From positions 186,001 to 250,000 of the forward strand of contig NZ_WHOL01000107.1 in NCBI RefSeq assembly GCF_009745975.1: a stretch of 64,000 nt of DNA, written 5' to 3'. Shown piece after piece: positions 6,437-57,564 of this stretch. The position numbers were made by a program, and so were the translations under genes. Source of the DNA: Actinokineospora pegani. GTDB lineage: Bacteria; Actinomycetota; Actinomycetes; Mycobacteriales; Pseudonocardiaceae. The stretch's first letter is position 1. Every line of letters starts with the position of its first letter. The notes under the pieces were generated by a model, which was given only the letters and a program-made list of their open reading frames with translations, was not told where the DNA came from and did not search any database.

Positions 6437-7186
6437 GTGCCGGACGCGATCTTCGCCCACCCCCGCCTCGCACCCCTCTACGACGCCTTCGACGGCGACC
6501 GCGACGACTTGGCGGCCTACCTCGCGATCGCGGACGAGCTCGGCGCCCACCGCGTCGTCGACGTCGGGTGCGGCACCGGGTGCCTGGCCCTGCTCCTCGC
6601 GGGGACCGGCCGGGAGGTCGTGGGTGTCGACCCCGCCGAGGCCTCGCTCGCCGTGGCGCGGGCGAAGCCCGGGGCAGGCGCGGTCACCTGGCTGCACGGC
6701 GACGCCGAGGCGCTGCCCGCGGTGGCGGCCGACCTGGCCGTGATGACCGGCAACGTCGCATCGGTCTTCGGCACCGAGGCCGACTGGCGGCGAACCCTCC
6801 TCGGCGTCGGTCGCGCGCTGCGCCCCGGCGGACACCTCGTCTTCGAGACCAGGCGCCCGCGGCGCCGGGTGTGGCAGGACTGGCCGACCGAGAACCAGCC
6901 GATCACCCTCGACGTGCCCGGGGTCGGCCTGGTGGAGCGCCGCTTCGAACTCCTCGACGTGAGCCTGCCGCTCGTGACGTTCCGCCACACCTACCGCTTC
7001 CACGCCGACGGCGCGGTCATCACCTCGGACTCGACACTGCGGTTCAGCGACCAGGACGAGCTGGAGGCGAGCCTGGTGGCGACCGGCTACCGCGTGCTCG
7101 ACGTGCGGGAGGCGCCGGACCGGCCGGGCCGCGAGTTCGTGTTCCTCGCGGCCCGGCCGGGCGGTCAGACCTCGCCGACCCAGTAG
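6437..7186 (+). CDS. class I SAM-dependent methyltransferase
   Basis: The 249-residue protein has the SAM-binding motif VVDVGCGTGCLALLLA near residue 40, the acidic residue of the next strand (VVGVDPAEASL), and motif II/III regions (LAVMTGNVASVF and LRPGGHLVFETRRP). The fold is that of small-molecule methyltransferases, and no substrate is implied. The start is a GTG. The last 11 codons (ARPGGQTSPTQ) lie in a 35-bp repeat found again 341 bases downstream, so the 3' end has been duplicated. A divergent LysR gene lies upstream. Confidence 0.8.
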   Translation: MPDAIFAHPRLAPLYDAFDGDRDDLAAYLAIADELGAHRVVDVGCGTGCLALLLAGTGREVVGVDPAEASLAVARAKPGAGAVTWLHGDAEALPAVAADLAVMTGNVASVFGTEADWRRTLLGVGRALRPGGHLVFETRRPRRRVWQDWPTENQPITLDVPGVGLVERRFELLDVSLPLVTFRHTYRFHADGAVITSDSTLRFSDQDELEASLVATGYRVLDVREAPDRPGREFVFLAARPGGQTSPTQ

Positions 7187-13833: not shown

Positions 13834-15234
13834 ATGACCCGCCCGCTGACCGGACCCGGTCTCGCGGTCCTGCTGTTCGCCGGGCTGCTGCCGATGGCGG
13901 ACGCCTTCATCGTGAACGTCTCGTTGCCCACGATCGCCACCTCGCTCGCCGCGGACAACGCCGACTTGTGCCTCGTCGTCGCCGGCTACGGCATCGCGTT
14001 CACCGTCTTCCTCACCCTCGGCGGCAGGCTCGGCGACGCCTACGGCCGCCGCACCGTGCTGCTGCTCGGCCTGCTCGCGTTCACCGCCGCCTCGATGGTG
14101 TGCGCGTTCGCCCCCACCACGGGTTGGCTGGTCGGCGCCCGCATCGCCCAGGGCGCGGCCGCCGCGCTCATCCCGCCCCAGGTCCTCGGCACGATCTCGG
14201 CCACCACCCCGCCGGCGCGCTGCCCGCGGTCGATGAGCCGCCACACCGCCGTCAGCGGACTGGCCGCCATGGGCGCCCTGTTCGTCGGCGGCCTGCTGAC
14301 CTCGGTCGACCTGTGGGGCACCTCTTGGCGGCTGATCTTCCTGGTCAACCTGCCGGTCGGCATCGCCGCCGTGCTGCTGACCGCGCTGGTCGTGCCGGAG
14401 ACCCGCTCGGCCACCCCCGCGGGCATCGACCCGCGCGGCACCGGCCTGCTGGCCGTCGCGGGTCTGCTGCTGCTCATCCCGCTCAACCGCGGCCCGGTGC
14501 TGGGCTGGCCGTGGTGGACAGTGGCGATGCTCGTGCTCGTCCCCGCCGCCGGGTACGCGCTGTGGCGGGTGGAGACCCAGGTCAGCGCCGCCGGACGGGC
14601 GCCGCTGCTGCCGCCCAGCCTCCTGGCCACCCCGGCGGTGCGCCGCGGCCTGCTGACCGTCGTCCCGTTCCTCGCCGCCTGGGCCGGGTGCCTCTACGCG
14701 CTGCCGCTGACCCTGCAGCAGGGCTTCGGGCTGGACCCGCTGTGGGCCGGACTCGTGGTCGTGCCCCTCGCGGCCGCCTTCCTGGCGGGCTCGCTCACCG
14801 TCCCCGCCCTGCGCGCCCACCTCGGTGACCGGGCGACCACCTGCGGCGCGCTCGCCCAGGCCGGGGGAGTGGTGTGGCTGCTGTCGTGCGTCGCCACCGG
14901 GGTCCTGGCCACCTCGGCGTGGTCGGCGCTGCCCGGCCTGGCCCTGGTCGGCTTCGGCCAGGCCGTCGTCGTCGGCAGCACCCAGATCTCCATCCTGGCC
15001 GCCATCCCCACCCGGCACGCGGCGGTCGGCGGGGGCGTGCTGGTCACCACCCAGCAGGGCGCGATGACCATCGGCGTCACCGCCCTGGGCAGCGTCTTCG
15101 GCGGGGTCCTCGCGGTGAGCCCGCACTCCGCCGCGTTCGGCGTCGTCCTGGCGGTGCAACTCGCCGCGGGCCTGGCCGTGGTCCTGGCGGTGCGCCGTGG
15201 GATCGGGCGGGCGCTGACGGTCAGCCCGCGCTGA
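13834..15234 (+). CDS. MFS multidrug-type transporter (DHA2-like)
   Basis: The 466-residue protein has about 14 hydrophobic segments. The MFS motif A appears as GGRLGDAYGRR near residue 68, and a first-helix D-x-F-I-V-N-V-S-L-P motif typical of DHA2 proton antiporters occurs near residue 20. Such proteins export drugs, dyes or small metabolites using the proton gradient. The gene is divergent from the tetR operon with a palindrome in between, so TetR may control it. The 3' end overlaps the convergent acetyltransferase gene by 14 bases. Confidence 0.85.
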   Translation: MTRPLTGPGLAVLLFAGLLPMADAFIVNVSLPTIATSLAADNADLCLVVAGYGIAFTVFLTLGGRLGDAYGRRTVLLLGLLAFTAASMVCAFAPTTGWLVGARIAQGAAAALIPPQVLGTISATTPPARCPRSMSRHTAVSGLAAMGALFVGGLLTSVDLWGTSWRLIFLVNLPVGIAAVLLTALVVPETRSATPAGIDPRGTGLLAVAGLLLLIPLNRGPVLGWPWWTVAMLVLVPAAGYALWRVETQVSAAGRAPLLPPSLLATPAVRRGLLTVVPFLAAWAGCLYALPLTLQQGFGLDPLWAGLVVVPLAAAFLAGSLTVPALRAHLGDRATTCGALAQAGGVVWLLSCVATGVLATSAWSALPGLALVGFGQAVVVGSTQISILAAIPTRHAAVGGGVLVTTQQGAMTIGVTALGSVFGGVLAVSPHSAAFGVVLAVQLAAGLAVVLAVRRGIGRALTVSPR

Positions 15235-15685
15235 GGTCGAGGGTCATGAAGACGCTGTGCGGGTCCAGGACGTAGTCCGCGAACGGCGCGCAGTAGGCGA
15301 ACCCGAACTTCTCGTAGAGCGCCCGCGCGGGGGCGAAGAACTCGGCCGACCCCGTCTCCAGGCTCAGCCGCCGGAACCCCATCCCACGCGCCTCGGCCAC
15401 CAGGTGCCCCAGCACCGCCCTGCCGACCCCACTGCGCCGCACCCCCGGCCGCGTCCGCATCGACTTGACCTCGCCGTGCTCGTCATCGAGCCGCTGCACC
15501 GCCGCACACCCGACAACCCGCCCACCGACCCGCGCGGACCAGAACGTCACCCCGGGCTCGCGCAACCCCGCCAGGTCCAGCGCGTGCTTGCTCTCCAGCG
15601 GACTCGTCTCCCGCATCTGCGCGACGTGCTCGGCGAGGAACTCCGCGATCTCGGGTCCACTGAGGTCGTCCAGCTCGATCTCCAC
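15221..15685 (-). CDS. GNAT-family N-acetyltransferase
   Basis: The 154-residue protein has the acetyl-CoA-binding motif MRTRPGVRRSGVGRAVLGHLVAEARGMGFRRLSLETG (about residues 75-112), with the R-x-x-G-x-G/A loop as RRSGVG and the C-terminal ALYEKFGFAYCAPFADY typical of small GNAT enzymes. The GTG start at 15685 leaves a complete domain, although no strong ribosome site is visible. The acceptor amine is unknown. The gene is convergent with the MFS gene and divergent from the phosphatase. Confidence 0.82.
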   Translation of the reverse strand: MEIELDDLSGPEIAEFLAEHVAQMRETSPLESKHALDLAGLREPGVTFWSARVGGRVVGCAAVQRLDDEHGEVKSMRTRPGVRRSGVGRAVLGHLVAEARGMGFRRLSLETGSAEFFAPARALYEKFGFAYCAPFADYVLDPHSVFMTLDLSAG

Positions 15686-15733
15686 GACCGGAGGATAGGC
15701 AACGGCAGCGCGGCGGTGGGCGTCATTGCGAGC

Positions 15734-16450
15734 GTGCACACCACGAGAGACCTGGACTGGCCGGACACCTACAACGTGCGGGACCTCGGGGGTCTTCCCA
15801 CCCGCGACGGGAGAACCACGCGCTGGGGCGCCGTCGTGCGGGGTGACCACCCGGGCAACCTCACGGTGGGCGGGTGGGCGGCGCTTCGGGCGCACGGGGT
15901 GCGGACGCTGGTGAACCTGACCGGCGACGAGTACGAGCCGGGGGAGGGGCTTGAGGTCGTCCACGTGCCGCTGGACGACTTGGACGACGGTGAGTTCTGG
16001 GATGTGTGGGGGCGTGGCCTGGACTGCACGCCGCTGTACTACGGGGCCTTCCTGGACCGGTTTCTCGGGCGGGTCGCCCGTGTGGTCGCCGCTGTCGCCG
16101 ACGCTCCCGCGGGCGGGGTGTTCGTGCATTGCGGCGGTGGGCGGGATCGGACTGGTTTGGTCGTGCTGCTGCTGTTGGCGGCTGTGGGTGTTCCCGCCGA
16201 GGTGATCGCGGACGACTACGTGGTGAGCACAGCCAGGTTGGAGCCCGCGTGGGTAGCGCTGGGGGCGGGGGACCAGACCCGGAAGATCGAGCAGTTGATC
16301 GCCTCGGAGGGGACCACGGCTCGCCAGGCGGTTCTGGACGCTGTCGCGTCGCACGACATCCAGGACTACCTGGTGGGGGTTGTGGGCGCGGTGCGGGTCG
16401 AGGCGATCCGAGATCGTTTGGTTCTAAAGTATAAACTATCGACTATCTAG
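15734..16450 (+). CDS. tyrosine-protein phosphatase (DSP/PTP-like)
   Basis: The 238-residue protein has the signature HCGGGRDRTG (HC-x5-R-T/S) near residue 130, which holds the catalytic Cys and phosphate-binding Arg, and the N-terminal NVRDLGGLPT motif found in bacterial tyrosine phosphatases of the MptpB/LipA type. It should hydrolyse phosphotyrosine, or phosphoinositides in some relatives. GTG at 15734 is used; GTG at 15716 is possible. The last residues (VLKYKLSTI) are coded by abruptly AT-rich sequence, so the native C-terminus may have been replaced by an insertion or deletion at about 16425. Confidence 0.8.
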   Translation: MHTTRDLDWPDTYNVRDLGGLPTRDGRTTRWGAVVRGDHPGNLTVGGWAALRAHGVRTLVNLTGDEYEPGEGLEVVHVPLDDLDDGEFWDVWGRGLDCTPLYYGAFLDRFLGRVARVVAAVADAPAGGVFVHCGGGRDRTGLVVLLLLAAVGVPAEVIADDYVVSTARLEPAWVALGAGDQTRKIEQLIASEGTTARQAVLDAVASHDIQDYLVGVVGAVRVEAIRDRLVLKYKLSTI

Positions 16451-16680
16451 ATTAATTGACTGTCGATCGAACAGATCGAACAGATCGGGCAGGGCTACAG
16501 GGGCGACAAGACCGTGTCGACCCGGCGGGCTATACGCGTCCAGGTCTTGTTGGTGCGGTCGACACTGAGGATGACGCCCGTCGCCCAGATCGTGGGCACC
16601 GGATGCTCTGTGTTAATTATTAACTATTCACTATCAAGATACACAGCAGTTAAAAACAACCAACAAACCACCAAAACCAG
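16451..16680. other. AT-rich island, no convincing gene
   Basis: Base composition drops sharply in AT content relative to the surroundings being GC-rich: TTAATTATTAACTATT lies near 16613-16628 and A-rich sequence follows to 16680. Three tandem 9-mers occur at 16465-16491 (GATCGAACA twice, then GATCGGGCA). On the minus strand about 34 codons ending at about 16494 read like a protein tail (SVDRTNKTWTRIARRVDTV) and may be the relic of a lost gene. The stretch looks like the scar of a recombination or insertion event. Confidence 0.5.
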
Positions 16681-16719
16681 CCGCTACGAGGGGGCCGATC
16701 CTGAGCTCCCTCGTAGCGG
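16681..16719 (-). terminator. rho-independent terminator of the tetR-MFS operon
   Basis: A perfect 12-bp stem (CCGCTACGAGGG with CCCTCGTAGCGG) lies just after the MFS stop. In the minus direction it is followed by a T-rich run (from about 16680 down to 16650), the classical terminator layout, which is rare in this genome. Confidence 0.8.
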
Positions 16720-16727
16720 TCGGGGGG

Positions 16728-18296
16728 CTAGTGGCCCGAGGCGGCCAGCTCGGCGGCGAGGCGTTCGTCGCCGGATTGGGTCTTGAGGGGCTTTTCCTTG
16801 ATGAGCAGGACGGCGATCAGTGCGACGGCGGCGATGGGGGTGGCGATGAGGAACAGGTGTGCCGTGGCGGTGGAGTAGACGTCCTGGACGATGAGGCGGA
16901 TGGGGTCGGGCAGGACTGACAGGTCGGGGACCTCGGTGCTGCCGCCGGTGGTGGGGGTGCCGGGGATGCGCTCGGCGAGGTCGCTGCTGATGCGGTTGGC
17001 CAGGACGGCGCCGAGGGCGCTGACGCCGATCGCGCCGCCGAGGCTGCGGAAGAAAGTGATGGTGGAGGTGGTGGCGCCGAGGTCCTTGGCGGGGACGTCG
17101 TTCTGGGCGACCAGGACCAGGTTCTGCATGAGCAGGCCGATGCCGATGCCGAACAGGGCCATGTACACCCCGATGAGGACGAGGCTGGTGTCGGTGGAGA
17201 TGGTGGCCAGCAGCGCCATGCCCGCGACGGTGATGACGCCGCCGGAGACCAGGTAGGTCTTCCACTTGCCGTGCTTGCTGATGAGCTGCCCGGCGACGGT
17301 GGAGGAGATCAGCAGGCCGAAGACCAGCGGGAGGCTGAGCAGTCCGGCCTCGGTGGGGGACATGCCGTGGCCGATCTGGAAGAACTGGGACAGGAACACG
17401 GTGCCGCCGAACATGGCGGTGCCGACGAAGGCGGAGGCGATGACCGCCATGGCCACGGTGCGGTTGCCGAAGATGGACAGTGGCACGACGGGGTCGGCGG
17501 CGCGGGACTCCACGAGGATGGCGAGTGCGAGGAGCGCGATGCCCGCGGTGACCAGGGCGGCGGTCCAGCCGGAGGCCCAGTCGAAGGTGTTGCCCGCGAG
17601 GGAGGACCAGATGAGCAGGGTGGAGACGCCGGTGACGATGAGGGCGGCGCCGAGCCAGTCGATGGTGACCTGCTTGCGGATGGTGGGGAGGTTGAGGGTC
17701 TTCTGCAGCAGGATGATGGAGGCGAGGGTGAAGGGGACGCCGATGAGGAAGCACCAGCGCCAGCCGAGCCAGGAGGTGTCGACGATGACGCCGCCGATGA
17801 GGGGTCCGGCGACGGTGCCGACGCCGAAGACGGCGCCGAAGATGCCCGCGTAGCGGCCGAGTTCGCGGGGCGGGATGATGGCGGCCATCACGATGGTGGC
17901 GAGTGCGGTGATGCCGCCCGCGCCGATGCCCTGGGCGATGCGGCTGACGATGAGGAATTCGATGTTGGGTGAGATCCCGGCGAGCAGGGAGCCGAGGGCG
18001 AACATGCCCAGTGAGGCTTGGATGAGCAGTTTGCGGCTGTAGAGGTCGGCCATCTTGCCCCAGAGGGGGACGGTGGCGGTCATGGCGAGCAGTTCGGTGG
18101 TGATGACCCAGGTGTAGACGGATTGGGAGCCGTTGAGGTCGTTGATGATGCGGGGCAGGGCGTTGGCGACGATGGTGCCCGCGAGGACGGCGACGAACAT
18201 GCCGAGCATGAGGCCGGAGATGGCTTGCAGGACTTCGCGGCGGTTGGTGAGTTGGCGCGGTGCCGGTGTGGTCGGCCCGGTTGTGGTGTCGGACAT
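16728..18296 (-). CDS. EmrB/QacA-type MFS exporter (DHA2 family)
   Basis: The 522-residue protein has 14 predicted membrane segments. DHA2 features include GTIVANALPRIINDLNGSQSVYTWVITTELL, motif A as GKMADLYSRK and motif C as GAVFGVGTVAGPLIGG. It should be a proton-driven exporter of hydrophobic or cationic compounds. The start is the ATG at 18296; the frame stays open far upstream only because of base composition. It follows tetR by 14 bases in the same operon, so it is likely repressed by that TetR. Its position beside the lysine genes may be coincidental, or it may export an amine intermediate. Confidence 0.9.
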   Translation of the reverse strand: MSDTTTGPTTPAPRQLTNRREVLQAISGLMLGMFVAVLAGTIVANALPRIINDLNGSQSVYTWVITTELLAMTATVPLWGKMADLYSRKLLIQASLGMFALGSLLAGISPNIEFLIVSRIAQGIGAGGITALATIVMAAIIPPRELGRYAGIFGAVFGVGTVAGPLIGGVIVDTSWLGWRWCFLIGVPFTLASIILLQKTLNLPTIRKQVTIDWLGAALIVTGVSTLLIWSSLAGNTFDWASGWTAALVTAGIALLALAILVESRAADPVVPLSIFGNRTVAMAVIASAFVGTAMFGGTVFLSQFFQIGHGMSPTEAGLLSLPLVFGLLISSTVAGQLISKHGKWKTYLVSGGVITVAGMALLATISTDTSLVLIGVYMALFGIGIGLLMQNLVLVAQNDVPAKDLGATTSTITFFRSLGGAIGVSALGAVLANRISSDLAERIPGTPTTGGSTEVPDLSVLPDPIRLIVQDVYSTATAHLFLIATPIAAVALIAVLLIKEKPLKTQSGDERLAAELAASGH

Positions 18297-18310
18297 CGTT
18301 CCTCGGGTGG

Positions 18311-18922
18311 TCAGGGCCGGGCCGGTGGCGTGAGGCCGTGGGTGAGCAGGGTGAAGACCTCGTTGATGTGGTCGCCGAGGGCTGGGGTGGTGGGGTCGCC
18401 GGGGGTGCGGAGCCATTGGGTGAGGGCGACGCGGAAGGCGCTGGTGATGGTGGCGGCTGTGGTGCGTGGGTAGGTGTGGTCGGCGGGGAGGCCGAGGCGG
18501 TCGGCGAAGGCTTCGGCGAGGGTGTGTTCGGTGGCGGCTCCGCTGAGGAAGGCGCGGTTGAGCATGTCGGGGTGTTCGCGGATGACGGAGAGGCGGGCGA
18601 GCCAGAGTTTGTGGTCGTGGTCGATGGTGGTGAGTTCGTTGTGGAGGAAGGTGCGGGCGGTTTCGAGGGGGTGTTGGTCGGGTGGGCTGGTGGTGATGTG
18701 GGCGCGGATGCGGTCGTCGGCTCCGGGGTCTGGGTTGAGGACGGCGTCTTCTTTGGTGGCGAAGTAGTTGAAGAAGGTGCGGGTGGAGACGCCTGCGCGG
18801 GTGGCGATGTCGTCGGTGGTGATGTTGTCGTAGCCGTGTTCGGTGGCGAGTTCGACGGCGGCGCGGACGAGGGTGGTGCGGGTTTGGCGTTTTTTGCGGT
18901 CGCGGAGGCCTTCGGTGCCCAT
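18311..18922 (-). CDS. TetR-family transcriptional regulator
   Basis: The 203-residue protein has a TetR DNA-binding domain (RTTLVRAAVELATEHGYDNITTDDIATRAGVSTRTFFNYFATKEDAVL, about residues 15-62). The F-F-N-Y-F-A-T-K form is common in the AcrR/MftR-like subgroup. The C-terminal domain is helical. ATG at 18922 is preferred because the upstream extension crosses a likely operator. It leads an operon with the EmrB-like exporter and probably represses it until an export substrate binds. Confidence 0.85.
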   Translation of the reverse strand: MGTEGLRDRKKRQTRTTLVRAAVELATEHGYDNITTDDIATRAGVSTRTFFNYFATKEDAVLNPDPGADDRIRAHITTSPPDQHPLETARTFLHNELTTIDHDHKLWLARLSVIREHPDMLNRAFLSGAATEHTLAEAFADRLGLPADHTYPRTTAATITSAFRVALTQWLRTPGDPTTPALGDHINEVFTLLTHGLTPPARP

Positions 18923-18954
18923 GGTGGTCACAGTACCGGCTGTTTGTGCAGTGG

Positions 18955-18968
18955 CTGCAAGTTTGCAG
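18955..18968. promoter_or_regulatory. TetR operator candidate
   Basis: CTGCAA-GT-TTGCAG is a perfect inverted repeat 32 bases before the tetR start, with a further TGCAG at 18948. It is a plausible autoregulatory site for the tetR-exporter operon. Confidence 0.5.
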
Positions 18969-19030
18969 GGAGTGTAGTGAGTCACGTTGTCTGCGGGCTG
19001 GGGTTGCTGGTCTGTTCCTGCCGGGGTGGG

Positions 19031-20446
19031 TCAGTCGGTGTGGTGGGTCCAGTGGTCGCGGCCCGCGGCGGGCAGGGTGGTGATCGGGTCGTAGTAGGGG
19101 TAGCGGCGGTGGAGGACGTCGGTGTCGTCGGTGTCGCGTTCGGAGCCCGCGAGGTAGTTCTTGGTCCAGTAGGAGATGCCGAGGTCGCGGTCGTAGTCGG
19201 CGAGTTGGTGGACCCAGCGCTTGCCGACGTAGGGGACGTCGCAGATGATGCGGGGGGTGGCGTAGCCGGGGAGGTAGCCCATGATGGCGTGTTGGAGGTT
19301 CTGGGCTTCCCAGACGGCGACGCGCCAGTGTTCGGCGTTGGGGATCATGTCGCACATGTAGAAGTAGTAGGGCAGGATCCCGGCTTCTCCTTGGAGTGCG
19401 AAGCAGAGGTCGAGGAGGGCTTCTGGGGTGTTGTTGACGCCGCGCATGAGGACGCCCTGGTTGCGGATGTCGCGGACGCCGACGTCGAGGGCGGTGCGGG
19501 TGGCCTCGGCGACGAGGGGGGTGACGGATTGGGTGTGGTTGACGTGGGTGTGGATGGCGAGGTTGACGCCGCGGCGGTGGGCGGTGCGGGCGACGCGTTC
19601 GAGGCCTTCGACGATGGTGGGTTGCAGCCAGTGCTGGGGTAGTGCGGCGAGGGCTTTGGTGGCGAGGCGGATGTCGCGGACGGTGTCGATGTCGAGCAGG
19701 CGCATGAGGAAGGTCTCGAGTTGGCGCCAGGGGACGTTGGCGACGTCGCCGCCGGAGACGACGACGTCGCGGACGCCGGGGGTGGCTTTGAGGTAGGTGA
19801 TCATGGCGTCTTGGCGGTCGGTGGGTTTGAGGGCGAGTTTGTGCTTGTCGACCTGGGGGGTGTTGTTGCCGACGAGGTCCATGCGGGTGCAGTGGCCGCA
19901 GTACTGGGGGCAGGTGGAGAGGAGTTCGGCGAGGACTTTGGTGGGGTAGCGGTGGGTGAGGCCTTCGACGACCCACATCTCGGCTTCGTGGAGTGAGTCG
20001 CGGGTGGAGTGGGGGTGGCTGGGCCAGTGGGGGTCGCGGTCGGTGGCGATGGGGAGCATGTAGTTGCGGATGGGGTCGGCGCGGAAGGCGTCGGTGAAGG
20101 CGGTGGGGGTGGTGTCGGCGTGGGGGGCCATGGTGTTGAGCATCTGCGGGGGGATGAGCATGGACATGGTGGCGTGGTTGTGCTGGTCGGCGGCGAGGTC
20201 GTCGTAGAAGTCGTCGGTGAGCAGGTTGCCGACGACGGCGCGGAGTTGGGTGGGGTTCTTGACGCAGTGGGCGCGTTGCCATTGGGCGTCGCGCCATTGG
20301 GTGTCGGTGGTGTCGTGCCAGGCGGGGAAGCGGCGCCAGTCGGGTTCGGTGAGGGTGCGCCGGGTGTACTCGTAGGGCTGGGCCGGGTGGTCGCCGTGGG
20401 GTGTCGGGGGTGTGGTGGTCGCGGTCCGGTCGTCGAGAGTTGGCAT
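19031..20446 (-). CDS. kamA: L-lysine 2,3-aminomutase (radical SAM)
   Basis: The 471-residue enzyme carries the radical-SAM cluster motif CPQYCGHC (Cys 179, 183, 186) and the aminomutase core around it (VVSGGDVANVPWRQLETFLMRLLDI, LAIHTHVNH, LPYYFYMCDMIPNAEHWR). The C-terminal DVPYVGK lysine corresponds to the PLP-binding Lys, although the usual glycine-rich DAPGGGGK form is changed. It should convert L-lysine to L-beta-lysine using 4Fe-4S, SAM and PLP. ATG at 20446 has GGAGGA 6 bases upstream. It is divergent from kdd across an 83-base promoter region, and the pathway context supports lysine as substrate. Confidence 0.9.
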   Translation of the reverse strand: MPTLDDRTATTTPPTPHGDHPAQPYEYTRRTLTEPDWRRFPAWHDTTDTQWRDAQWQRAHCVKNPTQLRAVVGNLLTDDFYDDLAADQHNHATMSMLIPPQMLNTMAPHADTTPTAFTDAFRADPIRNYMLPIATDRDPHWPSHPHSTRDSLHEAEMWVVEGLTHRYPTKVLAELLSTCPQYCGHCTRMDLVGNNTPQVDKHKLALKPTDRQDAMITYLKATPGVRDVVVSGGDVANVPWRQLETFLMRLLDIDTVRDIRLATKALAALPQHWLQPTIVEGLERVARTAHRRGVNLAIHTHVNHTQSVTPLVAEATRTALDVGVRDIRNQGVLMRGVNNTPEALLDLCFALQGEAGILPYYFYMCDMIPNAEHWRVAVWEAQNLQHAIMGYLPGYATPRIICDVPYVGKRWVHQLADYDRDLGISYWTKNYLAGSERDTDDTDVLHRRYPYYDPITTLPAAGRDHWTHHTD

Positions 20447-20529
20447 GTTTTCCTCCTCGCCGAGAGCTTCGCGTGAAGATATGCTGTCAGATGTGCGGTT
20501 GGACGCAAATCTTTCGGCAGGAGGGTGAC

Positions 20530-21564
20530 GTGGTCGTGAGTTCGCCGTTGGGTTTGCACCGGGTGTTGGAGCCTGCGGGGGTGTTGCCGCAGCGGGCGTG
20601 GCGGTTGGACGCCGATCCGGAGCCGGGGGTGGACGAGGTGGTGGTGGCGGTGGAGGTGCTCAACCTGGACGCGGCGTCGTTTCGGCAGTTGCGGGAGGAG
20701 CACGGGTCGGGTGCGGCGGTGCGGGCGGCGGTGCTGGGGATCGTGGCCGAGCGGGGGAAGATGCAGAACCCGGTGACGGGGTCGGGTGGGATGTTGTCGG
20801 GGACGGTGGTGGCGGTGGGGCCTGAGTCGCGGTTGGGGTTGGTGGTGGGGGACCGGGTGGCGTCGTTGGTGTCGTTGTCGTTGACGCCGTTGCGGATCAC
20901 CGATGGGTTGGTCCGGTGGGGTGGGGATTCGGAGCAGGTGCCGTGTGCGGGGACGGCGGTGTTGTTCGGGCGGTCGGTCGTGGCGCGGTTGCCGGGGGAT
21001 CTGCCGGAGGGGGTGGCGTTGTCGGTGTTGGACGTGTGCGGGGCGCCCGCGTTGACCGATCGGGTGGTGCGTGCGGCGGGGGTGGGGGCGTCGGTGTGCG
21101 TGTTGGGTGGTGGGGGCAAGTCGGGGTCGTTGTCGTTGGCGGCGGCGCGGGCGGCTGGGGCGGGTCGGGTGGTGGCGTTGGTGCCGACGGAGGGGGAGGC
21201 GGTGGCGGTGCGGGCGTCGGGGTTGGCCGGTGAGGTGGTGGTGGCTGACGCGCGGGACCCGGTGGCGGTGGCGGGTGCGGTGGGGGAGCCGGTGGATGTG
21301 ACGGTGGTGTGCGTGGATGTGGCGGGGTGTGAGCACGGGGCGGTGTTGGCGACGGCGGATGGGGGGACGGTGGTGTTCTTCTCGATGGCGACGTCGTTCT
21401 CGGCGGCGGCGTTGGGGGCGGAGGGGTTGGCGGCGGATGTGCGGATGCTGGTCGGGAACGGGTATGTGCCGGGGCACGCGGAGTTCGCGTTGTCGCTGTA
21501 TCGGGGTGAGGCCGGGGTGCGGGGGTTGTTCGGTGCGCGCGAGCGGCAGACTCCTGTGTCATGA
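20530..21564 (+). CDS. kdd: L-erythro-3,5-diaminohexanoate dehydrogenase
   Basis: The 344-residue protein matches the Kdd family, a diverged medium-chain-dehydrogenase fold. It has an N-terminal segment VEVLNLDAASFRQL, a middle GVVLGIVAERGKMQNPVTGSGGMLSGTV-like region and a nucleotide-binding loop CVLGGGGKSGSLSLAAARAAGA near residue 200. It oxidises 3,5-diaminohexanoate to 3-keto-5-aminohexanoate with NAD(P). GTG at 20530 follows AGGAGGG by 4-5 bases; GTG at 20536 is the alternative. It is the first gene of an operon whose next four genes overlap in series. Leucine is often coded TTG, reflecting the G-rich strand. Confidence 0.88.
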   Translation: MVVSSPLGLHRVLEPAGVLPQRAWRLDADPEPGVDEVVVAVEVLNLDAASFRQLREEHGSGAAVRAAVLGIVAERGKMQNPVTGSGGMLSGTVVAVGPESRLGLVVGDRVASLVSLSLTPLRITDGLVRWGGDSEQVPCAGTAVLFGRSVVARLPGDLPEGVALSVLDVCGAPALTDRVVRAAGVGASVCVLGGGGKSGSLSLAAARAAGAGRVVALVPTEGEAVAVRASGLAGEVVVADARDPVAVAGAVGEPVDVTVVCVDVAGCEHGAVLATADGGTVVFFSMATSFSAAALGAEGLAADVRMLVGNGYVPGHAEFALSLYRGEAGVRGLFGARERQTPVS

Positions 21565-23180
21565 CGAGCGCGGAGACGACAGTGTTGGTGGGTGGCCGGG
21601 TGCATTCCCCGGCTGATCCGCATGCCACGGCGATGGCTGTGCGGGATGGGGTGGTGGTGTGGTTGGGGCAGGACCGGGTGGGGCGGGCGTTGCACCCGGG
21701 TGCTGAGGTGGTTGACCTGGGTGGGGCGTTCGTGGCGCCCGCGTTCGTGGACGCGCATGTGCACGCCACGGCGGCGGGGTTGTTGTTGACCGGTTTGGAC
21801 CTGACCGGGTGTGGGTCGTTGCGGGAGTGCCTGGACTTGGTGGCGGGGTACGCGCGTGCGGGTGGCCCGGTGTGGGGGCATGGGTGGGATGAGACGGGGT
21901 GGCCGGAGGGGCGGGCGCCGTCGCGGGCGGAGGTGGACGCGGTGGCCGGTGGTGTGCCGGTGTATTTGTCGCGGGTGGATGTGCACTCGGCGGTGGTGTC
22001 GTCGGCGTTGGTGGACCGGGCGGAGGGGGTGGCGGGGGTCGCGGGGTTCGACGCGGTGGGGCCGTTGTCGCGGGAGGCGCACCACCGGGTGCGGCGGGTG
22101 GCGTTGGGGTTGATCACTCCTGGGCAGCGGGGGGTGGCGCAGGAGGGGTTCTTGCGGCACGCGGCGGCGCGTGGGGTGGTGGCGGTGCACGAGTGCGCGG
22201 GGCCGGACATCTCCGGGCGTGCGGACCTGGCGGCGTTGTTGGCGGGGTGTGCGGCGGATCTGCCGGAGGTGGTGGGTTATTGGGGGGAGTGCGGGTCGCC
22301 GTCGTTGGTGGCGGAGTTGGGGGTGCGTGGTTTGGGGGGTGATTTGTTCGTCGATGGGGCGATCGGGTCGCGCACGGCGGGTCTGGTGGCTGATTACGCG
22401 GACGCGCCGGGGTCGCGGGGGTCGTTGTACCTGGACGCGGCGGCGGTCGCCGAGCATGTGGTGGTGTGCACGGAGGCGGGGGTGCAGGCGGGGTTCCACG
22501 TGATCGGTGACGGGGCGGTGGCGGAGGTGGTGGAGGGGTTCGCGCGGGCGGAGGCCAGGGTGGGGCGTGCGGCGTTGGCGGGGTCGCGGCACCGGTTGGA
22601 GCACGTGGAGATGGTGTCGGGGGAGCAGGCCGACCGGTTGGGTCAGTGGGGTGTGGTGGCCTCGGTGCAGCCGTTGTTCGACGCGTTGTGGGGTGGGCCG
22701 GAGGGCATGTACGCGCGGCGGTTGGGGGTGGAGCGGGGGTCGGCGTTGAACCCGTTCGCGCGGTTGGCCGCGGCGGGGGTGGTGTTGGCGTTGGGGTCGG
22801 ACGCGCCGGTGACCCCGGTGGACCCGTGGGCGGCGGTGCGGGCGGCGGTGTGCCACCGCACGCCGGGGTTCGGGTTGTCGCCGCGGGCGGCGTTCACCGC
22901 GCACACCCGTGGTGGGTGGCGGGCCGGTGGGGTCGATGACGGGGTCACCGGGTCGTTGGTGCCGGGGGCGCCTGCGCATTACGCGGTGTGGGACGCGGGT
23001 GAGTTGGTCACCGCCGCGCCGGACTCGCGGGTGCAGCGGTGGTCGACCGATCCGCGTGCCCGTGTCCCCGGGTTGCCCGCGTTGCACGACGGCGCGGTGT
23101 TGCCCACCTGCCTGCGCACGGTGCGCGCCGGGCGGGTCATCTACGACCGGGAGGAGTCCCATGCCCCTGCTCGACCTTGA
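21561..23180 (+). CDS. amidohydrolase family protein (YtcJ-like) in the lysine operon
   Basis: The 539-residue protein has an amidohydrolase-3 TIM barrel: metal-binding HVH in FVDAHVHATA near residue 73, a VHECAGPDISG region, FHVIGDGAV near 313, RLEHVEMV near 338 and the catalytic Asp in LALGSDAPVTP near 412. Such enzymes hydrolyse amides or imines of small molecules. It overlaps kdd by 4 bases and kamD by 20 bases, so it is firmly part of the operon. It is not a recognised step of the aminomutase pathway and sits where the cleavage enzyme Kce might be expected. It might act on a cyclised or acylated diamino acid; this is speculation. Confidence 0.85.
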   Translation: MTSAETTVLVGGRVHSPADPHATAMAVRDGVVVWLGQDRVGRALHPGAEVVDLGGAFVAPAFVDAHVHATAAGLLLTGLDLTGCGSLRECLDLVAGYARAGGPVWGHGWDETGWPEGRAPSRAEVDAVAGGVPVYLSRVDVHSAVVSSALVDRAEGVAGVAGFDAVGPLSREAHHRVRRVALGLITPGQRGVAQEGFLRHAAARGVVAVHECAGPDISGRADLAALLAGCAADLPEVVGYWGECGSPSLVAELGVRGLGGDLFVDGAIGSRTAGLVADYADAPGSRGSLYLDAAAVAEHVVVCTEAGVQAGFHVIGDGAVAEVVEGFARAEARVGRAALAGSRHRLEHVEMVSGEQADRLGQWGVVASVQPLFDALWGGPEGMYARRLGVERGSALNPFARLAAAGVVLALGSDAPVTPVDPWAAVRAAVCHRTPGFGLSPRAAFTAHTRGGWRAGGVDDGVTGSLVPGAPAHYAVWDAGELVTAAPDSRVQRWSTDPRARVPGLPALHDGAVLPTCLRTVRAGRVIYDREESHAPARP

Positions 23181-24735
23181 TGCCGCGGTGGTGGCCAGGG
23201 CGCGTGCCCTGGCCGCGCGGGCGGCGGAGCCGGTGGTGGGGTTGGCGCGCGCGCACACCACTGTCGCCGTGGAGCGCGCGACGTTGCGTTTGGCGGGGAT
23301 CACCGGGGCCGACACCGCGCACCGGGCGGGGGATGTGCCGTGGGTGAACCGGGTGGTGGACACCGTCCGGGAGCAGTGCGGGTTGGAGCACGGGGTGGTG
23401 TTGCCGGTGTTCCACGCGGTGGGTGAGCTCGGTTTGGGGTCGTTGACGGAGTTGGCGGAGGCCACCGCCGCCGGGCAGGTGCGGTTCACGGTGCCCGCCG
23501 GGGCGGCGGCGGCGCGGGCGGGTCGGGCGGCGCGGGTGGCGGTGGGGCGGGGGTTGCGCGCGGTGGACCGGGCGAAGGTGGCGCGGGACCGGTTGGTGGC
23601 CAGGTTGGGGGACCCGCCGCGGCGGCCGTGGGTGTACTTGATCGTGGCGACCGGTGACATCGATGAGGACGTGGTGCAGGCGGCGAGTGCGGCGCGGGCG
23701 GGGGCGGATGTGATCGCGGTGATCCGCTCGACGGGGCAGTCGCTGTTGGATTATGTGCCGGAGGGGGCGACCCATCACGGGTTCGCGGGCACCTACGCCA
23801 CGCAGGAGAACTTCCGGATCATGCGCGCGGCCATGGACGTGGTGTCCGGGGAGGTGGGCCGGTATGTGCGGGTGACCAATTACGCGTCGGGGTTGTGCAT
23901 GCCCGAGATCGCGGTGTTGGCCGGGTTGCAGCGGTTGGACATGATGCTCAACGACTCGATGTACGGCATCCTGTTCCGCGACATCAACCCGGTCCGCACG
24001 TTCGTCGACCAGCGGTTCTCCCGGCAGGTGCACGCGCGTGCGGGAATCATCATCAACACCGGTGAGGACAACTACCTGACCACCGACGATGCGGTGGGCG
24101 CCGCGCACACGGTGACGGTGTCGCAGTTGCTCAACGAGCGGTTCGCGCACGAGGCGGGGTTGCCCGACGCGTTGGTGGGGTTGGGGCACGCGTTCGAGAT
24201 CGATCCGGCGGTGCCGGAGTCGTTCCGGTTGGAGTTGGCGCACGCGTTGTTGGCGCGGGAGCTGTTCCCGGACGCGCCGTTGAAGTGGATGCCGCCGACC
24301 AAGCACATGACGGGCAACGTGTTCGCCGGGCATCTGCTCGACGGGTTCTTCAACCTGGCGGGGGTGTTGACGGGGCAGTCGATCCTGCTGGTGGGGATGA
24401 TGACCGAGGCGGTGGCGACGCCGTTCCTGTCGGATCGGGACCTGGCGCTGGCCAATGTGCGGTACGTGTTGGGGGCGGCGGGGGCGTTGGCGGAGGATTT
24501 CCGGCCCGCGCCGGGCGGGTTCATCGTCTCGCGCGCGCACCGGGTGTTGGGTGAGGCGGTGGAGTTGTTGGAGCGGGTGGTCGAGGAGGGGTTGTTGACC
24601 GCCATCGCCCGGGGCACGTTCGGGTTGATGAAACGGCCGCCGGAGGGGGGCAGGGGCGCCGACGGGGTGGTGGAGAAGGCCGACGGGTACCTCAACCCGG
24701 CCAGCGACATGCTCGAGGGTGGGCAGACCCGGTGA
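23161..24735 (+). CDS. kamD: beta-lysine (D-lysine) 5,6-aminomutase alpha subunit
   Basis: The 524-residue protein is the large TIM-barrel subunit of adenosylcobalamin/PLP-dependent lysine 5,6-aminomutase. Characteristic segments include VYLIVATGDIDEDVVQAASAARAGADVIAVIRSTGQSLLDYVPEG, YATQENFRIMRAAMD, VTNYASGLCMPEIAVLAG and LKWMPPTKHMTGNVF. Together with KamE it moves the terminal amino group of beta-lysine from C6 to C5. ATG at 23161 has a GGAGG site 6 bases upstream and lies inside the end of the amidohydrolase gene. Its stop overlaps the kamE start by 4 bases. Confidence 0.93.
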   Translation: MPLLDLDAAVVARARALAARAAEPVVGLARAHTTVAVERATLRLAGITGADTAHRAGDVPWVNRVVDTVREQCGLEHGVVLPVFHAVGELGLGSLTELAEATAAGQVRFTVPAGAAAARAGRAARVAVGRGLRAVDRAKVARDRLVARLGDPPRRPWVYLIVATGDIDEDVVQAASAARAGADVIAVIRSTGQSLLDYVPEGATHHGFAGTYATQENFRIMRAAMDVVSGEVGRYVRVTNYASGLCMPEIAVLAGLQRLDMMLNDSMYGILFRDINPVRTFVDQRFSRQVHARAGIIINTGEDNYLTTDDAVGAAHTVTVSQLLNERFAHEAGLPDALVGLGHAFEIDPAVPESFRLELAHALLARELFPDAPLKWMPPTKHMTGNVFAGHLLDGFFNLAGVLTGQSILLVGMMTEAVATPFLSDRDLALANVRYVLGAAGALAEDFRPAPGGFIVSRAHRVLGEAVELLERVVEEGLLTAIARGTFGLMKRPPEGGRGADGVVEKADGYLNPASDMLEGGQTR

Positions 24736-43203: not shown

Positions 43204-44412
43204 TCACGCCCCGCCGAACACCCGGGCGGCCACCTTCGCCGCCGACGAGCGGGCCGGGTCCGGGGCGGCGGCGTTGTAGACGTGCCGGGTCGTGTCCGTG
43301 CTGGCGTGACCGACGTCGACGGCGATGTCGGTGAAGTCCGCGCCCTCGGCCACCGCCGTGGTCACGTAGTAGTGGCGCAGGGCGTGCGGGTGCAGGGTCG
43401 CCGCCAGGCCCGTGCCGTCCGGGTCGACCGCGGCGGCGATGCGGCGCAACAGCTCCCACACCGCCTGCCGCGTGCACCGCCGCCCGTTGCGGTTGACCAG
43501 CAGCGGCGTCGTCCCCGCCGCCACCCGGCCCCGCACCGCGGGCACCACACCGCCGGCGCGGTCCGCCGCGGCCAAGTACTCGTCCAGCACCACGGCCACC
43601 GGCTCGGCCAGGTACACGATGCGGTCCTTGCCGCCCTTGCCCGCCACCCGCAACGCCCGGTGCCCCCGGTTGCGGTGCAGGTCGGCCCGGTCCAGGCCGC
43701 ACAACTCGCTGACCCGCACCCCCGCGGTGAACAGCGCCACCACCGCCCGCGCCCGCAACCGGTCAGACTCCCGCTGCCGGGGCAACCGGCCCGCGAAGTG
43801 GAACAACGCCGCCACCTCCGCGTCGGCGAGCACCACCGTCCGCGACACCCCCACCGACGTCAGCCCCAACCGCTTGCGGTTCAACGCCGCCGGGTTCACC
43901 TCCACCACGTCCTCGACCACCAAGTGGTCGTAGAACGCCCGCACCGCCCCCAACATCTTGTCGCACGTCGAGCCCGCCGCTCCCGCCTCGACCAGATCCC
44001 CCACCCACACCTTCACATGCGACGCCCGCGCCGCCACCGGATCAAGGCCCCGCGACGCGCACCACCGGAACCAGTGCAGGTGGCGCAACCGCCCCGGCGC
44101 CCCCGGCGGCGGGGTCGCCCCGGACCGCGCCACCACCCCCGGCTTGCGCATCACCCCCGTGTACCGGCGCACCGCCCGCGCCCACACCTGTTCACCCGAG
44201 GCGCCCGCCCACCGCTCGATGTCGGCCACCGACACCGGCAGCCCCAACGCCTGACCCGCGTAGGTGTGCCGGGTCGCGGTGTTGCCGTACCCGGCCAACC
44301 AGTCCGCGACCGCCGTCAACAACCCGGCGGGGTCGGCCACCCCGGGCCACACCCCGGCCGTGTCCACATCCGAACCCGGTACGACCAGTTCCCCCTGCTC
44401 CACGCACCGCAC
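43204..44412 (-). CDS. tyrosine recombinase/integrase
   Basis: The protein of about 402 residues has a SAM-like N-terminal core-binding domain and a C-terminal catalytic domain. The tyrosine-recombinase residues are visible: Arg in GVRVSELCGLDRAD, Lys in VAGKGGKDRIVYL, the HPHALRHYYVT box (H-x-L-R-H), the VGHASTDTTRHVY segment with the second His and catalytic Tyr. The reading frame is open through a palindrome to 44493 but lacks ATG/GTG starts there; GTG at 44412 or 44403 is preferred, without a clear ribosome site (possibly leaderless). It is divergent from the coiled-coil gene. It may be the integrase of a decayed element or a chromosomal XerC/D-like enzyme. Confidence 0.88.
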   Translation of the reverse strand: MRCVEQGELVVPGSDVDTAGVWPGVADPAGLLTAVADWLAGYGNTATRHTYAGQALGLPVSVADIERWAGASGEQVWARAVRRYTGVMRKPGVVARSGATPPPGAPGRLRHLHWFRWCASRGLDPVAARASHVKVWVGDLVEAGAAGSTCDKMLGAVRAFYDHLVVEDVVEVNPAALNRKRLGLTSVGVSRTVVLADAEVAALFHFAGRLPRQRESDRLRARAVVALFTAGVRVSELCGLDRADLHRNRGHRALRVAGKGGKDRIVYLAEPVAVVLDEYLAAADRAGGVVPAVRGRVAAGTTPLLVNRNGRRCTRQAVWELLRRIAAAVDPDGTGLAATLHPHALRHYYVTTAVAEGADFTDIAVDVGHASTDTTRHVYNAAAPDPARSSAAKVAARVFGGA

Positions 44413-44456: not shown

Positions 44457-44500
44457 ACAGTCCTTGCCAACAGAAGCACACTTCTGTTGGCAAGGACTGT
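44457..44500. repeat. perfect 20-bp-arm palindrome with CACA loop
   Basis: The arms 44457-44476 and 44481-44500 are exact reverse complements around 4 bases. It lies in the divergent region between the recombinase and the coiled-coil gene. Beyond it, AGACTATAGTCT (44533-44544) and AGTTAACT (44557-44564) add smaller palindromes in an AT-rich spacer. A recombination crossover site, replication/partition site or operator are all possible. Confidence 0.8.
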
Positions 44501-44564
44501 CGGCAGGACCGATTTGATCGGTTAGTTAGATAAGACTATAGTCTATGGCAAGTTACAGTTAACT

Positions 44565-45716
44565 ATGAGAGTGGCGAGTGTGGGCGAGTCAGAGCAGATC
44601 AGCGTGGTGATCGACGAAGCGGCAGGCTGTCTGTGCTGTGGGCAGGAACTCCCGGAGCGCACCGGGGCCCGGGGCGGACCCCGGCTGCGGTACTGCCCCG
44701 AGGGCACCGGCCGCTGGGACGACGGGGAGTTCTCCTGCAAGCGACACGGGGCGGCGGTCGTGCTGTATCGGGTCGCACGCGGTGGCGAGCAGGGAGAAGA
44801 CCCGTTGGCCGTGCTGGAGCGGGAGCTGGGGCGGGTCGAGGACGTTCTCGCCCCGGTGGCCGACGCGCTGCGGCAGACCACCGCGGCCGTCGAGCAGCAG
44901 CGTGCGGTCGTGCGGGAGGAAGGGCGCCGGGTGGGGGAGGCCGAGGCGCGGGCCGAGCAGGAGCGGCAGCGGGCCGACGCGGCGGATGAGGCGCGGGTGC
45001 GCGCGGAGGCGGCGGCCGAGCAGGCCGGGCAGCAGGCGCGCGCGGCCGAGAAGCTCCGGGACGACGCCCGTGAGCAGGCCCGGCAGCAGCACGAACGGGC
45101 GGAGCACGCCGCCAAGCAGGCCGACACCGCCGAGCGCGCCCGGCAGGACGCCGTCCGCGCCGCCGAGGACGCCGCCCGCACCCGCGACGCCGTCGCCGAG
45201 CAGGTGGGGCGGTTGCGGGAGCGGCAGGAGGCGGACCAGGAGGCGCTGAGCCAGGCGCGTGCGGAGCTGGACCAGGTCCGCGGCGAGCGCGACCGCGCGA
45301 AGCAGGACCGCGACCAGGCCCGTGAGCGGGCCGAACGCGACGCGCTGCGCGTCGAGCAGGAACGGGCCGAACGCGACCGGGTCGCCCTGCGGGCGCTGAC
45401 CGCCGAGGAGACCGTCACCCGTCTCGGCGCCGATCTCGTCCAGGCGCGCGAGCACGTCACCGTCCTGACGACCCAGGTTGGCGGGCTCGTCAGCGAACGC
45501 GACAGCCTCACCGCCGAGCGCGGCGAACGGGTGCGCGCCGAGGGTGAGCTGGCGGTCGCGCGCGCCGCGCTGACGCGACGCGAGGCCGACCATGCCGCGC
45601 TCGAAGCGCGGTGGGAGGCGGTGGCGCAGATCGCGGCAGGGGTGCCCGAGGCGGCCGCGGCCGACGAGACAGTGCGTCGGGTGCTCAGCGGTCTCGCCGG
45701 TCGAGGCGGTGTGTAA
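44565..45716 (+). CDS. zinc-cluster/coiled-coil protein (KfrA-like architecture)
   Basis: The 383-residue protein has an N-terminal Cys cluster (Cys 22, 24, 25, 44, 58 and His 61; GCLCCGQELPERTGARGG...RYCPEGTGRWDDGEFSCKRH), probably a zinc site. Residues about 75-345 are one long Ala/Glu/Arg coiled coil with no proline breaks. The C-terminus is short and helical. The layout resembles plasmid-type KfrA or SMC-hinge-less DNA-associated coiled coils, but the DNA-binding domain is not a recognised KfrA_N, so the name describes shape only. No clear ribosome site precedes the ATG. It is divergent from the recombinase across an AT-rich palindromic spacer. Confidence 0.75.
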   Translation: MRVASVGESEQISVVIDEAAGCLCCGQELPERTGARGGPRLRYCPEGTGRWDDGEFSCKRHGAAVVLYRVARGGEQGEDPLAVLERELGRVEDVLAPVADALRQTTAAVEQQRAVVREEGRRVGEAEARAEQERQRADAADEARVRAEAAAEQAGQQARAAEKLRDDAREQARQQHERAEHAAKQADTAERARQDAVRAAEDAARTRDAVAEQVGRLRERQEADQEALSQARAELDQVRGERDRAKQDRDQARERAERDALRVEQERAERDRVALRALTAEETVTRLGADLVQAREHVTVLTTQVGGLVSERDSLTAERGERVRAEGELAVARAALTRREADHAALEARWEAVAQIAAGVPEAAAADETVRRVLSGLAGRGGV

Positions 45717-45796: not shown

Positions 45797-46195
45797 CTAC
45801 AGGCGGATGTCGCCGCTGACGTCGCCCGCGATCTGGATAGCGGTGCCGTGCACCGTGCCGGAGATGGTCTGGTTGACGAAGCGCACGCTCGACGCGTCCG
45901 CCTTGGTCGCGGCGACCGCCTCCCGCAACCGGACGGCGAACTCCTCGTCATCGGCCGCCGCCGCCTCCAGCGACAGCGCCACCCGGTTCTGGGTCAGTTG
46001 ACCGACCTCGCCCCGCGCGGCCTCCAGCTCCAACCGCTGCACGGCCGAATCGCCACCCAGCTTGCCCATCACCAGCTCGCCGACCCGGTCCACCGCCGCG
46101 TCGATGGCGGCGTCGGCCACCCCGTCCGCGCGTGTCGCCGCCCGGCGGGCCTTGGCGACCACCCAGGCAATGACGATCCCGACAACGACCTCCAC
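45797..46195 (-). CDS. small protein with N-terminal hydrophobic helix and C-terminal RHIM-like motif
   Basis: The 132-residue protein begins with a hydrophobic segment (VEVVVGIVIAWVVAKARR, residues 2-18) and continues with amphipathic helices to about residue 100. It ends in the pseudopalindromic motif TISGTVHGTAIQIAGDVSGD (residues 110-129). The G-x-V-x-G/I-Q-x-x-G pattern resembles the RHIM core I/V-Q-x-G and the RHIM/PP-like class of bacterial amyloid signalling sequences, which link NLR-type sensors to small helical cell-death effectors. GTG at 46195 follows GGAAGGGG by 6 bases. No NLR partner is visible in the window. Function is inferred from shape only. Confidence 0.7.
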   Translation of the reverse strand: MEVVVGIVIAWVVAKARRAATRADGVADAAIDAAVDRVGELVMGKLGGDSAVQRLELEAARGEVGQLTQNRVALSLEAAAADDEEFAVRLREAVAATKADASSVRFVNQTISGTVHGTAIQIAGDVSGDIRL

Positions 46196-46639
46196 GAGAC
46201 ACCCCTTCCGGCAGACTGACGCTGCCTCAAGCACACCACACCCGGCGCCGGTGATCATCGGAATCCGCCCGACTGGCGCCACCGCCACCCACCGGCAGGA
46301 CATGATCATCCACCGGACCCCGCACCCGACCGGCCGGTGGTGCGGCGGGTCGGATTCACCACCCCGCGGGGCGAGGCGCGGGCGACAGGAAGTCTTGGGG
46401 CCCGCCCCGCTCGCGCAAGCAATCCTGCGATGGACGACGGCGGTCGCAGCACCCCGAGCTGGGGCAATGTCTTCTACCAGGGCACGAACATCCCGTTGTG
46501 GGGCGGCGACGGCCTGGAGACCAGCGTCAGTTCCATGATGAACCGCGCACAGGTTCAACGATCACTGCGGCACGTGAGGGCCCGACACGCGATCGAAAAC
46601 GCACCTTGACAGCATGTGTCCGGAATTCCGGATATTCAC
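46196..46639. other. 444-base gap with no convincing gene
   Basis: The only candidate is a plus-strand frame at about 46430-46609 (MDDGGRSTPSWGNVFYQGTN...), a 59-residue product without a clear ribosome site or known family. The stretch is slightly less GC-rich near its right end. It may hold the remains of a lost gene. Confidence 0.35.
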
Positions 46640-57516: not shown

Positions 57517-57564
57517 AACGGGCCCTGGTCCGGTCGGGGCGCGCTGACCGGACCAGGGCCCGTT
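57517..57564 (-). terminator. proline operon terminator hairpin
   Basis: A perfect 19-bp stem (57517-57535 with 57546-57564) around a 10-base loop lies between the end of the proline dehydrogenase gene and the phosphatase gene, both on the minus strand, and probably separates the two units. Confidence 0.75.

Follow-up and report, generated by a model that had tools for sequence, protein, structure and literature searches.

A palindrome between recombinase and coiled-coil genes as the probable core site of a terminus-held recombination module in Actinokineospora and related genera

The locus examined here raises the question of why a long and exact palindrome should lie between a tyrosine recombinase gene and a coiled-coil gene in Actinokineospora pegani. 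The window (the whole stretch of 64,000 nucleotides analysed, positions 186,001 to 250,000 of contig NZ_WHOL01000107.1, hereafter C107) had been read earlier from its letters alone, and a recombination site, a replication or partition site and an operator were offered as possible roles. Our analysis indicates that the adjacent recombinase very probably uses the palindrome as its DNA crossover site, which has a dif-type core. Furthermore, we consider it likely that this is the core recombination site of a terminus-held module, comprising the recombinase, the site and the coiled-coil protein as helper, which resolves dimers. The features concerned are as follows.

43204..44412 (about), minus strand: XerD-like tyrosine recombinase ("type A"), catalytic R-K-H-R-H-Y intact, GTG start putative
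44457..44500, no strand: full palindrome (20-bp arms, CACA loop)
44462..44475, plus strand: predicted left recombinase-binding arm (14 bp), CCTTGCCAACAGAA, in a layout conserved at 35 loci
44476..44481, plus strand: asymmetric central hexamer GCACAC, putative crossover region, from AA-N6-TT in 35/35 sites and a centre that is never self-complementary
44482..44495, plus strand: predicted right recombinase-binding arm, TTCTGTTGGCAAGG, in the same conserved layout (35 loci)
44501..44564, no strand: AT-rich spacer with AGTTA/TAACT repeats and small palindromes, a candidate accessory or regulatory region
44514..44542, plus strand: promoter-like TTGATC-17-TATAGT, for the coiled-coil gene
44535..44562, minus strand: promoter-like TTAACT-16-TATAGT, for the recombinase gene
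44565..45716, plus strand: protein with a Cys4 N-terminal domain and a long coiled coil, putative accessory or helper protein

The exact inverted repeat described earlier is present as stated, with perfect 20-bp arms ACAGTCCTTGCCAACAGAAG and CTTCTGTTGGCAAGGACTGT around the loop CACA, and at 73% GC only about 2e-5 inverted repeats with arms of at least 20 bp (loops of 3-10) are expected in the window. The repeat is intergenic and its flanking genes diverge; the TTG "start" at 44493, which takes the recombinase reading frame into the palindrome, is an open frame only. The palindrome can be re-read as two 14-bp arms that enclose an asymmetric 6-bp centre, CCTTGCCAACAGAA-GCACAC-TTCTGTTGGCAAGG, the four-nucleotide loop being the inner part of the hexamer. 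Such an arrangement is that of dif and of other core sites used by tyrosine recombinases. The window holds two more long hairpins, GC-rich and unlike the palindrome, at 7120-7160 (16-bp arms, 9-nt loop) and 57517-57564 (19-bp arms, 10-nt loop).

The original prediction was to be refuted if the palindrome were not conserved beside homologous recombinase or coiled-coil genes; the recombination-site option came through this test and is strongly supported. At 35 homologous loci of the Pseudonocardiaceae, the layout [arm]AA-N6-TT[arm] lies beside a Cys4/coiled-coil gene, usually with a XerD-like recombinase nearby. A MAFFT alignment of the mixed site types put in gaps, and a count anchored on the centre was used instead. 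By this count, pairs 1 and 2 are A-T and pairs 4, 8 and 9 are complementary in all 35 sites, and the inner 14-bp arms are 84% complementary overall; when right arms were dealt among sites complementarity was 54% (maximum 64%), and when arms were slid it was 23-34%. The arms thus co-vary: their sequences differ by type yet remain self-complementary, albeit imperfectly at many homologous sites, and not one of the 35 centres is self-complementary.

Within the genus, the palindrome lies approximately 120-140 bp before the Cys motif of the coiled-coil homologues and has the invariant core ACAGAA-GNNCAC-TTCTGT (in the coiled-coil orientation), around which the outer arms differ between species while remaining largely self-complementary. 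Among the 16 Actinokineospora genomes, a search for the exact core ACAGAA-N6-TTCTGT gave a single copy per genome in the six that carry this module type and no copy in the remaining 10. One-mismatch matches in genomes lacking this type are sites of other types (e.g. GGTTACCGACAAAA-GGAGTG-TTCTGTCGGTAACC), which also adjoin a recombinase and a Cys/coiled-coil gene, and the ACGAAA-N6-TTTCGT set brings the count, over draft and complete assemblies together, to 16/16 Actinokineospora genomes with one module each. A scan of named genomes placed modules in Actinokineospora, Amycolatopsis, Actinosynnema, Actinophytocola and Pseudonocardia, and an order-wide profile search added more divergent ones from other genera of the family; when a different site type was sought by pattern across the phylum, in a sample too broad for the purpose, nothing was found. 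The palindrome is upstream of the coiled-coil gene at every locus. Gene order otherwise varies, in that the recombinase may lie 2-6 kb from the site or beyond the coiled-coil gene, several genomes have extra genes between recombinase and site, and in two (G086 and G174) no recombinase was found within about 9 kb of it. In three congeners a conserved gene (72-77% identical) lies across the site from the coiled-coil gene (L014:6897-7706, L016:4330-5220 and L017:5954-6616), which suggests that extra genes accumulate beside the site.

The types of site are matched by the types of recombinase. Six site types coincide with six recombinase clades and require five changes on the recombinase tree, which is the minimum, whereas shuffled labels require at least 15 (mean 18.8). 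As the coiled-coil gene, site and recombinase travel together, this match alone cannot say which protein reads the arms; it is the dif-like geometry that points to the recombinase as their reader. In one Actinokineospora genome (G013) the neighbours of the locus match those in the window, and the module there is of the GGGGTGATAA type found in other genera; the module is thus exchanged as a whole. Two further genomes (G007 and G011) carry the Amycolatopsis/Actinosynnema module type at the same syntenic place.

A second line of evidence is position. For eight genomes, dnaA and the site fall on a single chromosomal contig that is complete or nearly so, and there the distance of the site from dnaA is 0.447-0.516 of the chromosome, which corresponds to the replication terminus; the chance of such clustering under uniform positions, ignoring shared descent, is 1.7e-8. 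In 12 genomes canonical dif was located, at distances of 5-148 kb from the site. Using the Frankia dif quoted in PMC3025954 (CACGCCGATAATGCACATTATGTCAAGT) as the reference, the best match in C107 is at 256785, just beyond the window and 26 kb from the palindrome, which places the palindrome of this genome in the terminus as well and shows that it is not canonical dif. Its orientation relative to dif is not fixed (eight same, four opposite), and the GC content of the 34-mer site is 0.53 versus 0.73 for the window. The replication or partition role proposed earlier agrees with these data in location, at the terminus; however, we see no sign of an origin or centromere. A canonical XerD (over cut-off) and a second Xer-like gene were present in all 12 genomes tested, and thus a second resolution system would be redundant on paper.

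Other features of this terminus were observed in passing. A second XerD-like recombinase (type B) is encoded at G000:C107:255478-256533, about 5.5-6.5 kb past the window end, and has its own dif-like palindrome at 256507, GATGGATAA-GGGCGA-TTATCCATC, about 280 bp from canonical dif; a similar arrangement near dif, TTTCATGCATAA-N6-TTATGCATGAAA, is found in several congeners and in G739 and G774. There is also a strong local GC skew of +0.26, on a near-zero background, at about 14000-24000 of the window (C107:200001-210000) and one of about -0.3 at C107:290001-320000, stretches that are perhaps long biased or repetitive genes.

With regard to the proteins, the catalytic R-K-H-R-H-Y set is intact in every recombinase homologue whose sequence covers the column, and the solved structures nearest to the recombinase profile are XerD and XerA. 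Against the XerS model the recombinase scores 41.7 bits (cut-off 267), which places it outside that equivalog. The coiled-coil protein matched no Pfam family and no specific NCBIfam family, the latter giving weak generic coiled-coil matches only, and a fold search with its N-terminus returned nothing with E below 1. Beyond it, 45797-46198 on the minus strand encodes a small protein with homologues in several congeners, the end of which, NQTISGTVHGTAIQIAGDVSGDIRL, we take to resemble amyloid-signalling-type motifs.

The earlier reading noted two further palindromes in the spacer between the site and the coiled-coil gene (44515-44570), and small palindromes do lie there, at 44508-44522 (ACCGATTTGATCGGT), 44533-44544 (AGACTATAGTCT) and 44551-44564 (AGTTACAGTTAACT). 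Over the 35 loci, GC content is 0.44 on the coiled-coil side of the site versus 0.69 on the opposite side, and AGTTA/TAACT occurs 47 times in the coiled-coil-side spacer versus seven expected from single-base shuffles. The two divergent promoter-like elements have one -10 palindrome in common, and a recombinase transcript begun at the minus-strand element would contain the site.

Taken in sequence, these elements suggest how the module might work. A recombinase dimer would bind each site through its two inverted arms around the 6-bp asymmetric crossover region. Where one molecule holds two copies, as in a chromosome dimer or a post-replication cointegrate, the sites would synapse, and the coiled-coil protein, seated on the AT-rich repeats beside the core, may help synapsis or impose topological selectivity. 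Strand exchange within the hexamer would then resolve the dimer. Resolving dimers is the most probable role of the module, since a site that occurs once, in the terminus, can find a partner only on a sister chromosome or within a dimer. Against this reading, no recombination product was seen, and the redundancy beside XerD and the second Xer-like gene, the recombinase genes lying away from the site or not found near it, and the variable orientation relative to dif also count against it.

It is also conceivable, though in our estimation unlikely, that the palindrome serves a small integrative element (IMEX-like or an integrase cassette) as attachment site, the element settling in the terminus with the recombinase and the coiled-coil protein as its mobility genes. 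Module types that do not follow species at one syntenic place (G013; G007 and G011), and the additional genes that separate recombinase and site in several genomes, are what such an element might leave. However, there is one exact core per genome, and a search for near-exact copies, which covered about 10 kb at the other end, found no second site or flanking half-sites. Furthermore, all 16 congeners carry the module, near the terminus wherever this is measurable, and viral contigs gave no confirmed relative. Plasmid and phage records held no match, and a plasmid or phage origin for the palindrome was rejected.

A considerably poorer account is that of an operator through which the coiled-coil protein or the recombinase regulates itself, with no recombination involved. 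Although the site is upstream of the coiled-coil gene everywhere and promoter-like elements adjoin it, an operator needs no constant 6-bp asymmetric centre, no AA/TT edges, no terminus position and no restriction to a single copy per genome, and site type tracks the recombinase tree with no exception. As a second role of a recombination site, an operator may nonetheless be entertained, given the divergent promoter-like elements in the adjoining spacer. A hairpin role, as RNA leader structure, terminator or hairpin-telomere site, would explain the perfect symmetry and co-varying arms, yet is scarcely credible for a site that lacks a T tract (the ground on which the terminator reading was rejected), is placed upstream of the promoter-like element of the coiled-coil gene and has many homologues with imperfect arms and none with a self-complementary centre.

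The usual description of chromosome dimer resolution is that each chromosome needs a single Xer system. We would put at about even the chance that the termini of Pseudonocardiaceae have, beside XerCD/dif, an additional resolution module open to horizontal exchange and, in several genomes, a further recombinase and palindrome at dif, amounting to up to three tyrosine-recombination systems per terminus. Should a second terminus module be held across genera though exchanged between species, one may ask what XerCD/dif cannot do here; the recombinase/site pairs offer six specificities that could be tested at once. The combination of recombinase, site and coiled-coil partner is apparently undescribed, in that the open-licence papers searched gave no account of a second Xer/dif system for these genera; an earlier description elsewhere could have been missed.

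Of the known systems, the first to be compared are XerS/difSL of streptococci and lactococci and XerH/difH of epsilon-proteobacteria, in which one Xer-like gene adjoins a dif-like terminus site whose inverted repeats flank a central region (PMC2731167, PMC5357621). The present module resembles them in its inverted arms and 6-bp centre, its terminus location, its linked recombinase gene (G086 and G174 excepted) and its one intergenic site per chromosome with GC below that of the genome. Unlike them, it does not replace XerC/XerD, as the genomes also have XerD and a second Xer-like gene, along with canonical dif; its recombinase falls outside the XerS model, and it includes a coiled-coil partner and six site types. 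In the TnpS/TnpT/rst system of Tn4651-type Tn3 transposons, a tyrosine recombinase and a divergent helper flank a core inverted repeat with accessory repeats, and variable genes can separate the two genes (PMC7157771, PMC4619425). Divergent recombinase and putative helper likewise flank the site in the window and several relatives, other orders also occurring, and the enriched spacer repeats beside the core are candidate accessory sites; by this analogy the coiled-coil protein may be an accessory protein. In contrast to TnpS/TnpT/rst, the module is chromosomal and terminus-bound and its putative helper has a Cys4 N-terminus. No Tn3 transposase (tnpA) was found among the nine neighbouring genes scanned, which are GDPD, GGDEF/EAL, methyltransferase, Nramp, peptidase and luciferase-like genes or without family. 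An IMEX or other integrated element has two flanking sites, whereas a near-exact search gives the module only one. Canonical actinobacterial XerCD/dif shares the inverted arms around a hexamer and the terminus location; the sequence of the site is, however, unrelated to dif, which is a separate site. The module is most likely a second, terminus-bound Xer/dif-like system that works like XerS/difSL with a TnpT-like helper, and may help to separate joined chromosomes.
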